From: Ascidiaceihabitans sp. | GTDB lineage: Bacteria; Pseudomonadota; Alphaproteobacteria; Rhodobacterales; Rhodobacteraceae | NCBI GenBank assembly: GCA_028248455.1 | Contig: JAOKHV010000005.1 | Span: forward strand, 16,738 to 80,737 | Direction of reading: 5' to 3' | Length of the DNA: 64,000 nt | Shown: in pieces, positions 3,293 through 59,607 of the stretch | Layout: every line of letters begins with the position of its first letter | Position numbering within the stretch: the stretch's first letter is position 1 | Notes under the pieces: model-generated | Told to the model about the DNA's origin: nothing | What the model saw: only the letters and a program-made list of their open reading frames with translations | Databases searched by the model: none | Made by a program: the position numbers and the translations under genes

Positions 3293-4572
3293 CACTTTCA
3301 TGGACACAGATTATGCGGTTAGGGCTGGTGCAAATGGCACTTGGCGCGATTGTCGTTTTGACCACATCGACACTAAACAGGCTGATGGTGGTCGAATTCG
3401 CACTGCCCGCTGTTTTGCCCGGTGTGCTTGTTGGCCTGCATTACGGCATTCAAATGTCGCGGCCTAAATGGGGTTTTATGTCGGACAATGGAGCGAACCG
3501 GACAAAATGGATTATCGGCGGTATGATCGTCCTTGCAATCGGTGGCTTCAGCGCTGCCTTGGGTGTCACGTTGTTTGCTATCAATTTTTGGGCGGCGCTG
3601 GGGCTATCGTTTTTAGCCTATACATTTATTGGGCTTGGAGTGGGCGCATCAGGCACATCCTTGCTGGCCCTTTTGGCAACAGCCACCGCACCACAGCGCC
3701 GCGCTGCTGCCGCAACAATCACATGGCTCATGATGATCTTTGGCATCGCAATCACCGCTGGACTGGCGGGTTACTTCATTGCTCCCTATTCACCCGAGCG
3801 TTTGCTTGTCGTCGTCGCTGTCGTTGTCACGCTCGCTGTGATTTTGACGATTTTAGCCATTGGACGAATCGAAAGCCGCGTCACGGCCGCTGCCCCACAG
3901 CCAACCATGTCATTTCGTGACGGTCTTACAGAAATTTGGGCAGAGCAGAAAACCCGCAATTTCACCATCTTCGTCTTTTTGTCGATGAATGCCTATTTCA
4001 TGCAAGAACTGATCTTGGAACCCTTCGCAGGATTAGTATTCAACTTCACTCCAGGTCAATCGACATCGCTGTCAGGGGCACAAAACGGCGGAGTATTTTT
4101 TGGCATGTTAATCGTAGGCATCGTTGCCACAGGGCTAAAGATCGGGTCGTTGCGGTCATGGGTCGTAGCGGGATGTCTTGGGTCGTGTGCCGTGCTTGGC
4201 ATAATCAGTCTTATGGGTACCGGTGCACTCAACGCGCCATTGGTACCGGTTGTTGTGGCACTTGGGGTCTTTAACGGCATGTTCGCGGTGGCAGCCATCG
4301 GCGCAATGATGGCGCTAGCGTCCCAAGGACGCAGCGGAAGGGCTGGAACCCGTATGGGAATTTGGGGCGCAGCCCAAGCGATCGCCGCAGGCTTTGGCGG
4401 ATTAACTGGCGCATTAGCGGTAGATATAATGCGTAGCATCATGGCCGACGGACCTGCATTTGGCGCTGTATTTGCTTTTGAGGCAACAATATTTTTTGCA
4501 GCGGCCCTTATGGCCGTGCGCATCATGGAAATACAAAAGGCACCAGAGGCCGCAATGATACCGGGGGAATAA
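3289..4572 (+). CDS. PucC/LhaA/Bch2-family MFS protein, between bchG and bchP
   Basis: 12-TM PucC-like sequence; ATGA overlap with bchG; position corresponds to the orf428/bch2 gene of Rhodobacter. Confidence 0.85.
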   Translation: MTLSWTQIMRLGLVQMALGAIVVLTTSTLNRLMVVEFALPAVLPGVLVGLHYGIQMSRPKWGFMSDNGANRTKWIIGGMIVLAIGGFSAALGVTLFAINFWAALGLSFLAYTFIGLGVGASGTSLLALLATATAPQRRAAAATITWLMMIFGIAITAGLAGYFIAPYSPERLLVVVAVVVTLAVILTILAIGRIESRVTAAAPQPTMSFRDGLTEIWAEQKTRNFTIFVFLSMNAYFMQELILEPFAGLVFNFTPGQSTSLSGAQNGGVFFGMLIVGIVATGLKIGSLRSWVVAGCLGSCAVLGIISLMGTGALNAPLVPVVVALGVFNGMFAVAAIGAMMALASQGRSGRAGTRMGIWGAAQAIAAGFGGLTGALAVDIMRSIMADGPAFGAVFAFEATIFFAAALMAVRIMEIQKAPEAAMIPGE

Positions 4573-4574
4573 CT

Positions 4575-5753
4575 ATGTACGATGTTGTAGTGATTGGTGG
4601 TGGGCCTTCTGGGGCAACCGCAGCAAATGATCTGGCACTTTCAGGATTTCGAGTCGCGATGATTGACCGCGCTGGGCGGATCAAACCTTGTGGCGGCGCA
4701 GTTCCACCACGTGCGATTTCAGATTTCGACATCCCTGATGATCAGTTGATCGCCAAAGTGAACACAGCCCGTATGGTATCCCCCACCGGACGCCGCGTAG
4801 ATATTCCGATCGAGAACGGATTTGTCGGCATGGTAGACCGCAAAGATTTTGATCCATTTTTGCGCGAACGCGCGATCAGCAACGGCGTCACCTCTTTGAC
4901 AGGTACTTTCCGCAGCATTGAACGAAGGGGTGACAATCCAACGGTCATCTACCGCGACAAAAAAACTGGCAAAGACAAATCAATCCGGACCCGTATGATT
5001 ATTGGCGCCGATGGGGCGCGGTCTAATGTGGCCAAGGCCGAAGTGCCGGGTGGTGAGAAAATCAACTACGTGATCGCCTATCACGAAATAATAGAAGCCC
5101 CTGCCAAATCAGCGAGCTATGACCCGCTGCGGTGTGACGTGATTTATGACGGGAAAATCTCGCCAGACTTTTACGGCTGGGTATTTCCCCACGGAGCGTC
5201 CTGTTCGGTTGGTATGGGCACGGGTGTGGACGGCGTTGATCTTAAACAGGCGACTGCTGATTTGCGCGCAGCCTCTGGACTGACCGATTGCAAAACACTG
5301 CGGCGCGAAGGGGCACCTATCCCACTGCGACCTATGGATAAATGGGACAACGGACTCGATGTGGTATTGGCTGGCGATGCGGCCGGAGTCGTTGCCCCGT
5401 CGTCTGGCGAAGGCATCTATTATGCAATGATGGGTGGGCGTCTTGCAGCGACAGCAGTCAGCTCTGCTCTAACATCTGGCCGTGCCAAAGATCTAACATT
5501 GGCACGGAAACTTTTCATGAACGAACATAAAAATGTTTTCAAAGTGCTAGGCGCGATGCAAAATGCCTACTACCGTAGCGACGAACGGCGCGAACGCTTT
5601 GTCTCATTATGCCACGATGTGGATGTGCAGCGGCTGACCTTCGAGGCCTACATGAACAAGAAGCTAGTAGCGGCAAAACCAATGGCACATCTAAAAATTG
5701 GGGTCAAAAATTTAGCTCACCTCACCCGCATAATCCCGGCCACACGTATATGA
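4575..5753 (+). CDS. bchP: Geranylgeranyl reductase
   Basis: N-terminal MYDVVVIGGGPSGATAANDLALSG FAD motif, PCGGAVPPRAI, GDAAGVVAPSSGEGIYYAM. Confidence 0.93.
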   Translation: MYDVVVIGGGPSGATAANDLALSGFRVAMIDRAGRIKPCGGAVPPRAISDFDIPDDQLIAKVNTARMVSPTGRRVDIPIENGFVGMVDRKDFDPFLRERAISNGVTSLTGTFRSIERRGDNPTVIYRDKKTGKDKSIRTRMIIGADGARSNVAKAEVPGGEKINYVIAYHEIIEAPAKSASYDPLRCDVIYDGKISPDFYGWVFPHGASCSVGMGTGVDGVDLKQATADLRAASGLTDCKTLRREGAPIPLRPMDKWDNGLDVVLAGDAAGVVAPSSGEGIYYAMMGGRLAATAVSSALTSGRAKDLTLARKLFMNEHKNVFKVLGAMQNAYYRSDERRERFVSLCHDVDVQRLTFEAYMNKKLVAAKPMAHLKIGVKNLAHLTRIIPATRI

Positions 5754-54067: not shown

Positions 54068-54643
54068 TTATTGCAGATCAAGTTCGAACAGTCCGTTCGC
54101 AAGTGTACCACCTTTAATCAACTCACCTAAAACAACGGTCGAACGGCCGCCATTGGCGTCGTTCACCACCCATTGGCGAAGCTCAACTGGATTGCTCGTG
54201 AACTTCAGTTCAATGCTACCGTATTCAGGGTTCTTTGGATTTTGAGCCCGCACAATTGTGGCTGTGCCATCGTAGTCATGGCCAACAACCATTTCCGCCT
54301 GACCAAGGTCGACATTGCGGGCCAAAATCAATGAAAGCGGCGTGCGTCTTAGGGCATAGGATTCGGGTGGTTGGTTCGATTTCTTATCGTAAATCTTAAT
54401 GGATCCACTGCTCGCCAAGACCAATGCATCGTCATACTCAAACCGCATGCGGCCTGGTCGCTTAATGGAAATTTTACCTACAGAAATTGTACCGTCATCG
54501 TTAATCTGTGTGAAATCACCAGATGCCGTTTTCAAGTCGTTCAAGAAATTCGAGATTTCATTCAACGACAACTTATCTGCGCTGGCAACAGTTGCGAGGC
54601 TCATGAATGTAGCGGCAATAAATGATTTAAAAACGTATGACAT
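54068..54643 (-). CDS. lolA: Outer membrane lipoprotein carrier protein LolA
   Basis: TASGDFTQINDDGTISVGKISIKRPGRMRFEYD. Confidence 0.9.
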   Translation of the reverse strand: MSYVFKSFIAATFMSLATVASADKLSLNEISNFLNDLKTASGDFTQINDDGTISVGKISIKRPGRMRFEYDDALVLASSGSIKIYDKKSNQPPESYALRRTPLSLILARNVDLGQAEMVVGHDYDGTATIVRAQNPKNPEYGSIELKFTSNPVELRQWVVNDANGGRSTVVLGELIKGGTLANGLFELDLQ

Positions 54644-54822
54644 GTTTTGTGGTCCTACTTGTTCTTGTTATGAAGCGAAATATAAGCAGTCTAGTCATGT
54701 TATGCGATATCAAAGGCGATAAATCGTGCAATCGCATCAATTCCCAACACTAATGGTCGCCCCATAAAAATTCGGAATCGTTTGTGACATCCCCCGATCG
54801 CAACGGGTGACAGGTTGCTCCG

Positions 54823-55540
54823 CTACAAAATAATATCCTTTGGGCGCAACTGAAAATCAGCTACATAAACCAAATTAATCGCATTGATCGCATCGAGATA
54901 CCACGCCGTGATCCCCCTAAATTCTTCATCTTTGGTTGGGCCACGCAAAACATAGATCTGCGATATATCCCCCGTTCCGGGGGCAATACAACCGGCATCA
55001 AACAGCGCGTCAGCTAGTACCACTTGCCCCGCGAACGGAAGCGCGAAACGCGATTGCACTCCAACCTCTCCCGTCAAATAAACTTAGTCAGGCTTGTCCG
55101 CCCCTAGGCTTTGCGCTTTGAGGAAGTTCTCGCGTTGGTCGCTTTGTCGATCCCTTAGCAGCGTGACTTCTGCTTGCAACGCTTCAAGCGCTACTTGGCG
55201 TGACCTTTGCTGTGTCCCGATCAAAAGCAATTGCTGTTGAAAGTACTTTTGGGCCGCCTCAATGTCTGAACCAGGATCAAAAAAATGGCATCTTCATCCA
55301 GCAACCGCACTTTCACCTGACCCGATTTGAAATAAAGATGAGACAACGGTATCTGATATAACTGGCCATCACGGTAAATCCGAACAGACGTATCTTCAGC
55401 CTTGCCACCAACAACGCCACTCGCTGCAGCCAGCACTTCGCCTAAGTGAATTGGGGCCAGTTTTAACGCCACATGTTTGGCTTTAGGACTGCTCCAACAA
55501 TATAAATTTTCCGCGAATTTAACTCTACTATTTCAAGACT
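54823..55540 (-). pseudogene. Wza/BexD-type polysaccharide export protein, decayed
   Basis: VELNSRKIYIVGAVLKPNMW / LKLAPIHLGEVLAAASGVVGG / AAQKYFQQQLLLIGTQQRSRQVALEALQAEVTLL / VYLTGEVGVQSRFALPFAGQVVLADALFDAGCIAPGTGDISQIYVLRG split over frames; in-frame TAA at 55084-55086; frameshift at the A7 tract 55279-55285. Confidence 0.85.
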
Positions 55541-55562
55541 GAATGTACGTTCGATTTGGTTT

Positions 55563-56239
55563 TCAACCACGGATCGACGCGATCCCTTCGCTTGAAGGCG
55601 CGTAGCGAATGTTTACATGCACCTTACTGCCATCAAGAAACCATGTACCCACAGCCGCCTGTCTCATCGCCAAATCCTCGGCTTTAGGCAATTCATTGTA
55701 GCTCCCCTCAGCCGTCAACACATCGGTTCGAAACAAACGCTTCACTGAACTTACAGGCGGTGAATAGGTAGCACCTACATTTGACCAGCTTACTGAAAAG
55801 GGACCCGTTCAATATCGAACTGCACCACCCCAGTCAACGATCGCGACCGGTTGGTTCGGTTCATTCTTGCCGTTGCGGGTAAATGCTCTTTCCTTATATA
55901 GCTCCGCCTTAACCAGCACACTGTATGCGCCACCCGTCGCATTACCAGTGGCAAATGCACCGTGGATCGTACGCTTAGGCGCGCTGAAATCGCCATCATA
56001 GGTGCCCAGACCGTTGTTGCTATCTTCACCGGTAGCGCTGCACACATGAACAGCAGTGCCGGTCGAGATCTGTGGGTCGACCAGATCGCCTGGACTTAGG
56101 GTTGGGGCAAAATCAAGCTCCATGCGTTTCACACCCATTGGGAACGGATTTGATCCCATGCAAAACCACTTGGAAAACCCAGTGCCTCAACCCCAGAGCC
56201 CCGATACTGGGGCTGTATACCCACACCAGCCCCCAACAT
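55563..56239 (-). pseudogene. Phage-like head-spike protein gene, decayed (GTA GhsB-like, tentative)
   Basis: MLGAGVGIQPQYRGSGVEALGFPSGFAWDQIRSQWV* then frameshift to MELDFAPTL...SGDFSAPKRTIH-type segment, in-frame TGA at 55809-55811 (CGA expected), continuing TGPFSVSWSNVGATYSPPVSSVKRLFRTDVLTAEG. Confidence 0.6.
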
Positions 56240-56507
56240 TAAATCAAGCTCTTTAGGCCTGTTGCAGTTGTCCCCGTGTCCAAAACACGCAAAACCCGCA
56301 CCGGATAAATCGCCCCGGCAGTTAGACCTAGAAATATGATTGCATCACCATTCTTCAAGACGACAGACACGTCTCCACCGCTTGTTAGGCCGAGAGCGCG
56401 TGTAACATTTGGAGATCAACAACATCGTCAGGCAAGATATCAAACCTACCACAAATTGGGCTGCTAAGACCCGATGTGACATCGCCAAATGTATCTAAAA
56501 TGGTCAT
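56239..56507 (-). pseudogene. Spike base protein gene, RCAP_rcc01079-like, frameshifted (tentative)
   Basis: MTILDTFGDVTSGLSSPICGRFDILPDDVVDL | 1-nt deletion | NVTRALGLTSGGDVSVVLKNGDAIIFLGLTAGAIYPVRVLRVLDTGTTATGLKSLI*; 269 nt, one short of 90 codons. Confidence 0.65.
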
Positions 56508-56640
56508 AAACTCTTCCTCAATAAATGTTCACATCCACATCATTCAAGGAAGTTTATGCATCGAGAAGGCACCGTTCGATGCCCATTCAATCGGTCTTTT
56601 CGACCACCAAATTTTCATCTGATGGCCGAATTATTAGTTC

Positions 56641-59607
56641 TTAACTGTGTTCAGGGATCAAGATTTCGCGTTTACCAACATGGTTCGCAGCAGACACAAG
56701 GCCCTGATCTTCCATCTGTTCAACAAGTCTTGCTGCTTTGTTATACCCAATCGCCAATTTGCGTTGGATATAGCTGGTGGAACACTTCCGATCCTTTGCA
56801 ACGATGGCAACAGCGGTATCGTACAGCGCGTCCTCACCGTCAGTATTCCCACCCAAACCAAGAACAGCATCAATGCTGTTTTCTTTGTCTTCATCCGGCC
56901 CTTCGACAACACCGTTGATATAGTCAGGTACACCAAACGCTTTCAGGTGGTTCACGACTTCTTCAACTTCTTCATCGCTTACAAACGGGCCATGGCAACG
57001 CGTAATCTTTGCACCGCCAGCCATATACAACATGTCACCCATACCCAACAGCTGCTCTGCACCCATTTCACCAAGGATGGTACGGCTGTCGATTTTTGAG
57101 GTCACTTGGAACGAAATCCGCGTTGGGAAGTTCGCCTTAATCGTACCTGTAATAACGTCCACAGACGGACGCTGTGTCGCCATAATCAAGTGAATGCCAG
57201 AAGCACGTGCCATCTGTGCAAGACGCTGAATACAGGCTTCGATCTCTTTACCAGCGACCATCATAAGGTCGGCCATCTCATCCACAATCACGACGATATA
57301 GGGCAGCGCCTCTGGTGTTGTCTCTTCTGTCTCGAATATCGGTTCACCCGTATCTTCGTCAAAACCAGTTTGAACGGTACGACTAAACAGCTCACCTTTG
57401 GCCAATGCCTCACGCACACGACCGTTATAACCTTCGATGTTACGAACGCCCATTTTAGACATCTTACGATAGCGCTCTTCCATCTCGCCGACAGTCCATT
57501 TTAGAGCCACAACCGCCTTTTTAGGGTCGGTTACAACTGGCGACAGCAGATGCGGGATGCCATCATAGACCGACAATTCCAACATCTTTGGATCAATCAT
57601 GATCATGCGACATTCCTGCGGCGTCAATTTGTAAAGCAATGACAAGATCATCGTGTTGATCGCAACTGATTTACCGGAACCCGTGGTACCAGCGATAAGA
57701 AGATGAGGCATCTTAGCAAGGTTCGCTACCATGCTGTCGCCACCAATGTCTTTTCCCAAAGCAAGTGGCAGGCGCATGTTGCTATCACCGAAATCGCGGC
57801 TCGACAAAATTTCACGAAGCACAACTTTTTCGCGGTGCTCGTTCGGCAGCTCGATACCAATAACAGAGCGACCAGGAACAGTTGAAACACGTGCAGACAA
57901 GGCTGCCATTGAACGGGCAATATCGTCAGCCAAACCTATGACTCGGCTGGCTTTTAAACCCGGTGCAGGCTCAAGTTCATACATGGTAACAACAGGACCA
58001 GGGCGCACAGAAACAATTTCACCTTTGACGCCGTAATCGTCCAGCACGTTTTCAAGCATACGTGCATTTTCTTCCAATGCCTCATCACTTAAATGCTGAT
58101 GTTGAACATCGTCTGCACTCTCCAACAAGTTAAGCGGCGGCAATTCGAATGCTGGGCGGTTGTCTTCAAACGATAAACTAGGCTGCGCTTCGGCTTTCGC
58201 ACGCGCGCTTGGTTGCACAGATTTACGAATAGGTTGCTGTACAACTTTGCGTGGCTCCACCACTGGGATCGACATTGGTTGCGGCGTGGCTTGTGGTGTT
58301 GGTGTCTGGATAGCAGCTTGCGTTGGTGTTGCGGTTTCAATTCTTGGTGCTACTGGAACCGGAGCAAAAGGCGCAGGTGCGATCAAAGGCGGCTCAGCGC
58401 GCAGCGAAGAGATCGCCGCATCTGGTGAGGTCATTGGTGGCTCTGGTGGCAATTCAAATTGATCAACAAAGATATTTTGCTCTGGTTTTGGCTGAGTGTT
58501 CAAAACCAACGGATCAGGTCCACGACCGAGGCCCTTGGTCAACGGCGCTACAGACTTGATCTGAATAGATGGGTTCGAACGAACGCGAGATTGAATAACA
58601 CCAGCAATCTTCGCCTTGATACGATCATCGTCAGGTGCATCGACATAATTGTCGCAATTGAAAGTCTCAATCAATTCAGATTCAGGCATTTCCTGAATAA
58701 CAGGTTCTGCACGTTTGATAAGTGATGGCATGCGCGCAAGCAGACCCGTTTTTACCACGGGCTCCGCATTTACAATGGGATCATGCATCGGTTCGAGTGT
58801 CGGTACAAAATTGGGGTCAGCGTCGGCACTTGCAGATGGTACAGCGGCAACAGCAGCTTGATAAGCAGCAGCTTCATCCGCTTCAACACGGTTGCGTTCC
58901 TTACGATCAGCGTTGCGTGCCTGCAAATCACGTGCAGCAAGAACGGCAGAATTAGCGCCTTTGCCCAACAACGTCATGAGGCCAGCATAAAGCATGATCA
59001 AACCGATCAATAGGAAACGACCCGTGCGCATCAACTCAGGCTTCGTAAAGCCCAAGACAAATGCGCCAAGTGCAAGGATACCAACACCCAATATCAAAGA
59101 CATGAGTTTAATTGCAAAGGACGATCCTAACGGAAGTACAGTCAAGATTGCACCCATAACAGTATCACCGAATAATCCGCCCAATCCAAAGCTGTGGGTT
59201 TGCAACCATACTTGGCCTGGCTCTAGAGTTGCGCCATAGATAGAGACCAATGCAACTGCAATCGGTGCAAAAATCAAACGCCCAACGACACGCTCTTGGC
59301 CACAGTGCATTGCAAAGCGTGCACCCCATGCCAACAAAACTGCAGCAATCGCCCATGCGCCCAAACCAACGATCATAAACAATGGCGCGGCAATCGATGC
59401 ACCAGAACGGCCCAACCAATTTTGAACCTGCGCGTCAGTGGAAACCATCCAGTTTGGATCATCCGGCGTATAGCTAAAAATCATCGCCGCAGCCATCAAG
59501 CCAACGACAATCAACGCAATGCCGATCAGCTCTTTGCCGCGTTTCTCGATGGCTTCGGCCATGTTGCTGTCTAGCAATGGATCGCGCCCGCGTGTCTGAT
59601 ATGCCAT
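56641..59607 (-). CDS. ftsK: DNA translocase FtsK
   Basis: 4-TM N-terminus, Walker [30 protein letters not shown]-terminal gamma domain. Confidence 0.97.

Follow-up and report, generated by a model that had tools for sequence, protein, structure and literature searches.

Broken head-spike and capsule genes between ftsK and lolA in Ascidiaceihabitans: probable scar of a gene transfer agent adhesin island

Between the intact ftsK and lolA genes of an Ascidiaceihabitans genome, three broken genes (ghsA, ghsB and a Wza-like gene) lie in a row on the minus strand, raising the question of what this block once encoded and how all of its parts came to be broken. The relics were read in the window, which is the whole 64,000-nucleotide stretch of contig JAOKHV010000005.1 analysed here; the genome containing it (G000) measures 2.08 Mb and is 76% complete. 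Eleven genomes of the same genus (G001-G011), most of them incomplete MAGs, served for comparison, and genome searches were run family by family and region by region. We consider it highly probable (roughly 0.85) that the block is the scar of an island encoding head spikes of the type carried by RcGTA, the gene transfer agent (GTA, a domesticated phage-like carrier of DNA) of R. capsulatus, along with the machinery for their probable receptor polysaccharide, and that this island has since decayed in a genome whose GTA cluster was also deleted.

Elsewhere in the window, at about 1500-28000, pufL/M-like, bch-like and crt-like frames seen by eye form an apparent photosynthesis gene cluster, and the host is therefore probably an aerobic anoxygenic phototroph. 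A broken crtC was suspected in the window and rejected when the frame was found to be open.

Three relics and their lesions

The features of the block and its flanks are as follows.

54068..54643, minus strand: lolA, intact flank of the insertion site, open frame
54737..55568, minus strand: wza relic, C-terminal half of a polysaccharide-export (OPX/SLBB) gene (PF22461 SLBB_2, NF011658; 50-62% identity to residues 196-475 of G008 wza)
55365..55371, minus strand: direct repeat TGATGGC, copy 2
55565..55572, no strand: deletion junction joining ghsB at about residue 224 to wza at about residue 196-214 (G008 numbering), placed by comparison with the G001, G008 and G011 sequences
55569..56239, minus strand: ghsB relic, spike-fibre/receptor-binding gene, first ~224 codons only (60% identity to G008 ghsB over 192 aa)
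55629..55635, minus strand: direct repeat TGATGGC, copy 1 (one boundary of the in-frame ghsB::wza deletion in G002)
56239..56507, minus strand: ghsA relic, GTA head-spike base (Rcc01079 family), about 89 codons with one frameshift, by profile and PDB matches
56641..59607, minus strand: ftsK, intact flank of the insertion site, 2967 bp, open frame

The ghsA reading scores 75 bits (E 4.2e-21) on NF048002, the NCBIfam model for the spike base protein, RCAP_Rcc01079 family, which has a cut-off of 28. It also matches the RcGTA spike base of known structure, Rcc01079 (PDB 6tb9; E 3.3e-9, residues 5-83), and PHROG 12296 (E 1e-19). It extends from an ATG at 56507 to a TAA at 56241-56239 with a single frame loss near 56414, and is a relic in having no intact frame able to yield the protein; open frames are present among its orthologues in sister genomes.

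Directly 3' of ghsA lies ghsB, whose ATG overlaps the ghsA stop codon (TAATG, 56241-56237). This gene has a frame loss near 56148 and an in-frame TGA at 55811-55809, and its likeness to relatives ends at about 55570. The reading matches PHROGs of phage hydrolases or fibres, and phrog_16653 with E 2.8e-7. Its N-terminus, MLGAGVGIQ, has counterparts in G008 and G011 (MLGAGLGL/MLGAGVGL), all of them short alternations of hydrophobic residues and glycine. Searches with the body of G008 GhsB found no sequence match in the PDB, IMG/VR yielded no GhsB relative, and an AlphaFold model of GhsB built from a four-sequence alignment was poor (mean pLDDT 38).

In the third relic the frame changes three times, near 55472, 55281 and 54831, and is interrupted by a TAA at 55086-55084; the frame loss near 55281 sits in a T-run (an A-run on the plus strand). 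Matches to PF22461 SLBB_2 (29 bits, cut-off 27) and to the Wza family model NF011658 (E 1.5e-7, below the full-length cut-off) give it the SLBB domain and C-terminus of the Wza/OPX exporters. What sets it apart from those exporters is the missing N-terminal half, which bears the Poly_export domain (PF02563); that part is deleted from the window and present in the G008 orthologue; only the C-terminal half remains because ghsB is joined directly to wza. The one other Poly_export match in G000 (G000:C58:71366-71548) is partial and falls within an open frame of 1163 residues, unlike the usual Wza of sister genomes at about 383 residues.

All three minus-strand relics claimed in the earlier note were found, and the resemblance of the first two to rcc01079/rcc01080 is supported by the NF048002 and 6tb9 matches, the TAATG overlap and the anchor-like N-terminus. 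The lesions it listed (a frame loss in ghsA, a frame loss and TGA in ghsB, and a TAA, an A-run frameshift and a further frame change in wza) are all present, and the lesion near 54831 adds a fourth to wza. The note ended the block at 54820; alignment with G002 carries the original wza frame to about 54737, some 85 bases further. Its assignment of this gene to the Wza-type exporters holds for the family and requires correction in that just the C-terminal half is there.

Could these lesions be errors of assembly or sequencing in genes that are in fact intact? Several of the frame losses are single bases, some of them in short homopolymers, which lends this explanation some colour. The neighbouring genes, however, carry no frame losses, and indel errors cannot produce two point stops or raise dN/dS. 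Between G000 and G002, dN/dS was 0.59 over 361 relic codons versus 0.14 over 1573 flanking codons (ftsK, lolA and the gene upstream of ftsK, all three open), with similar dS in relics (0.106) and flanks (0.116); for ghsA between G008 and G011 the ratio was 0.03, at a dS near saturation. In addition, ghsB and wza each lack about half of their length, and sister genomes carry other, independent deletions. On these grounds error was rejected as the cause of the lesions, and we regard it as very improbable.

The ftsK-lolA interval across the genus

Comparison of the lolA-ftsK interval in sister genomes, a check named in the earlier note, brought to light an empty site, a full island and a series of remnants. 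The site is empty in G005, G009 and G010, where ftsK and lolA are 131-134 bp apart. G008 holds a whole island of 15.2 kb, in the order ghsA, ghsB, a GumK-type glucuronosyltransferase, a flippase-like (Wzx-like) protein, an acyltransferase, an unassigned protein where Wzy would stand, a sulfotransferase, two glycosyltransferases, a second acyltransferase, a priming sugar transferase, Wzc and Wza. The island genes match polysaccharide Pfam families, and besides the spike genes no phage gene was seen among them. Both island ends are present in G011, on two contigs; relative to its ghsB, that of G008 diverges and ends early. In G003 no interval between ftsK and lolA could be recovered.

About 12 kb of capsule genes separate, in G008, the points that are fused in the window. 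We therefore rejected the idea that ghsB and wza were original neighbours: as judged from sequence comparison, their adjacency is a deletion artefact and the exporter is the far end of the island. The co-inheritance of spike and capsule genes proposed in the earlier note thus survives, with the island whole in G008 and both of its ends in G011, and the original adjacency does not.

Deletion-scarred remnants occupy the site in six genomes (G000, G001, G002, G004, G006 and G007). That of G002 is an in-frame ghsB::wza fusion, and that of G001 an out-of-frame ghsB/wza junction at another point. G004 retains ghsA and pieces of GumK, flippase and wza; G006 has just the last ~136 residues of wza; and in G007 a frameshifted ghsA stands at a contig end, at the ftsK end of the island. 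In a tree built from ftsK, the gene upstream of it and lolA, the groups are G000/G002/G004, G001/G006/G007 and G008/G011, and the genomes that have no island branch outside them, so that the remnant genomes fall in two clades. Because of this, and because G004 retains genes missing from G000 and G002, there must have been at least three separate large deletions. The G002 fusion point falls exactly at the 7-bp repeat TGATGGC, of which the window has two copies 264 bases apart; the G002 state can therefore derive from a G000-like state. The fusion in G002 (L032, ~7975-6824) is an open chimera that starts with the spike anchor peptide and ends in the SLBB part of the exporter.

These comparisons show that an ancestor within the genus carried a ghsA-ghsB-capsule island between ftsK and lolA, and that in the lineage of the window a deletion of about 12 kb joined ghsB directly to the 3' half of wza. 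The relics left behind are gathering frameshifts and stops under relaxed selection.

Loss of the GTA cluster and the cause of decay

Profile searches of G000 found PF13547, TIGR02217 and PF05065 to be absent. The GTA cluster lies between fabF-mltG and cysE in G002, G005 and G008 (on two contigs in G002). On contig C22 of G000 (locus L093), fabF, mltG, a fragment of the next gene, a remnant of ORFG15, one small gene and cysE all stand within about 4.5 kb, the remnant being some 72 C-terminal codons of what is the last large gene of the cluster. This site was located with an MltG query that shares 72% identity with the G008 protein and is in part approximate after about the first 40 residues; the content of the site was read from the DNA. 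Since the cluster site itself reads as a deletion scar, the absence is not due to MAG incompleteness, and the head-tail cluster of the same genome has been deleted between mltG and cysE.

The cluster is completely lost in G004, has lost its 5' half in G006, and is present in G010 in copies broken into several frames; at L099 of this outgroup species most GTA genes are there in broken form, an independent decay. At the GTA site of G004 (L094, ~4020-5330), after the gene adjoining mltG and in the place of the cluster, stands a fragment resembling by eye the AHH-type nuclease domain of a polymorphic toxin.

In G002 the terminase, portal, capsid and ORFG15 genes are open and the spike and capsule genes broken; G008 shows the opposite state, with the island kept and the GTA terminase and ORFG15 split. 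The particle, spike and capsule systems were therefore lost in no fixed order. A Bac_transf priming sugar transferase was found in G005, G008, G009, G010 and G011 and in none of the six remnant genomes (of which G002 is 94% complete). As spikes, capsule exporter and GTA cluster are all broken or deleted in G000, this genome has lost its gene-exchange system together with the likely receptor. The earlier note had read the block as simultaneous decay reflecting loss of GTA adhesion or of the capsule. Such loss is supported by the deleted GTA cluster of G000 and the undetected priming transferase; both systems are gone from G000, and strict simultaneity fails on the opposite states of G002 and G008.

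By analogy with R. capsulatus, pentamers of GhsA at the capsid vertices would each hold one GhsB fibre by its N-terminal peptide. We infer from the same analogy that GhsB of these genomes binds capsule, gripping that of kin cells, and the island polysaccharide is probably what the spikes bound. Adhesin and receptor encoded together may keep producers and recipients matched, and piecemeal loss in several sister lineages may have followed when GTA exchange or the capsule ceased to be of benefit.

An alternative is that the spike genes never served a GTA and were phage-type fibre genes on a polysaccharide island, for example a phage-derived capsule hydrolase trimming or modifying the cell's own polymer. 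Spike-base homologues are also carried by phages such as DSS3P8 and vB_RpoS-V10, the body of GhsB bears a distant likeness to phage proteins with hydrolase or tail-fibre annotations, and the RcGTA tailspike is reported to degrade biofilm (PMC13420450). Yet the overlap of the ghsB start with the ghsA stop and an N-terminus like the anchor suit a capsid spike and not a free enzyme, no other phage gene was seen in the G008 island, and the island bearers G008 and G011 both carry GTA genes, so we think this origin unlikely. A stronger challenge concerns the cause of decay, in which loss of the capsule alone, through phage escape or streamlining, removed the neighbouring spikes and the GTA was lost for unrelated reasons. 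The opposite states of G002 and G008, and the lack of a detected priming transferase in the remnant genomes, fit this account. Against it, G000 and G004 have both systems deleted and the GTA of G006 is half-deleted, a pattern that suggests linked relaxation and is not proof of it; we hold an unconnected loss to be a real possibility, albeit the less favoured one.

Why GTAs persist or vanish is debated. The scar read here belongs to a single genus that shows an empty site, a full adhesin-plus-capsule island, several stages of loss and GTA clusters ranging from open to deleted, and ordinary comparative genomics can therefore test in what order, and how independently of one another, particle, adhesin and receptor are lost.

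Spike-capsule linkage and known systems

The spike base family NF048002 is present in 102 of 298 genomes of the family. In 80 of these genomes, at least 21 of 85 spike genes have a Poly_export gene within 25 kb, where 2.8 would be expected, the count being a lower bound based on exporters among the matches listed. Contigs were scanned for GhsA with a five-sequence alignment, one of 13 sequences having proved too diverse. On a Tateyamaria contig (L078), ghsA-ghsB and the genes from flippase to priming transferase stand in the order and orientation of the G008 island, with no ftsK or lolA in the 20 kb examined, and on a second contig (L079) ghsA-ghsB is linked to GumK and sugar-nucleotide genes. 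From their sequence context, the spike and capsule genes look like a cassette moving between chromosomal sites, and their recurrent linkage points to a range of GTA recipients that is inherited in cassette form. We put forward tentatively, at a little under even odds, the broader proposal that spikes and capsule make up a single lock-and-key cassette that can be transferred, that comes and goes as one unit at different chromosomal sites across Rhodobacteraceae and sets GTA exchange partners, and that was dismantled several times in parallel in Ascidiaceihabitans, in some lineages with the GTA itself.

In R. capsulatus, according to PMC10218006 and PMC7296036, rcc01079/rcc01080 are head spikes that bind capsule and rcc01081-01086 make the capsule needed for binding; PMC7296036 cites Westbye 2016 for capsule binding by RcGTA. 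The window relics share with these spikes a base protein of the same family, as judged from the profile and from the likeness to the sequence of the solved protein, and a position outside the main GTA cluster (PMC6209664). They also share a hydrophobic/glycine fibre N-terminus: the peptide IALGLGLGL, which anchors the RcGTA fibre in the pentamer of the base (PMC7296036), resembles MLGAGVGIQ of the window ghsB by eye. The body of GhsB is longer in relatives (387-450 aa versus 325 in RcGTA), and the window copies are frameshifted and truncated. Polysaccharide genes adjoin the spike genes in R. capsulatus too, by locus-tag number (rcc01081-rcc01086). In contrast to that cluster, the G008 set includes GumK, Wzx, sulfotransferase, Wzc and Wza at a site between ftsK and lolA, and its counterpart in the window is almost entirely deleted. 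R. capsulatus strain 37b4, without the capsule cluster and unable to receive GTA (PMC10218006), offers a likeness in that natural absence of a capsule locus is tied to GTA function; there the whole capsule cluster is missing, whereas the window keeps a scar and broken spikes and the GTA cluster is gone. Among 5.39 million open-access papers, none names both gene transfer agents and Ascidiaceihabitans. The spike-capsule link in R. capsulatus is already known; what is new is an apparently mobile cassette that has been lost repeatedly, together with the scar of the GTA cluster.
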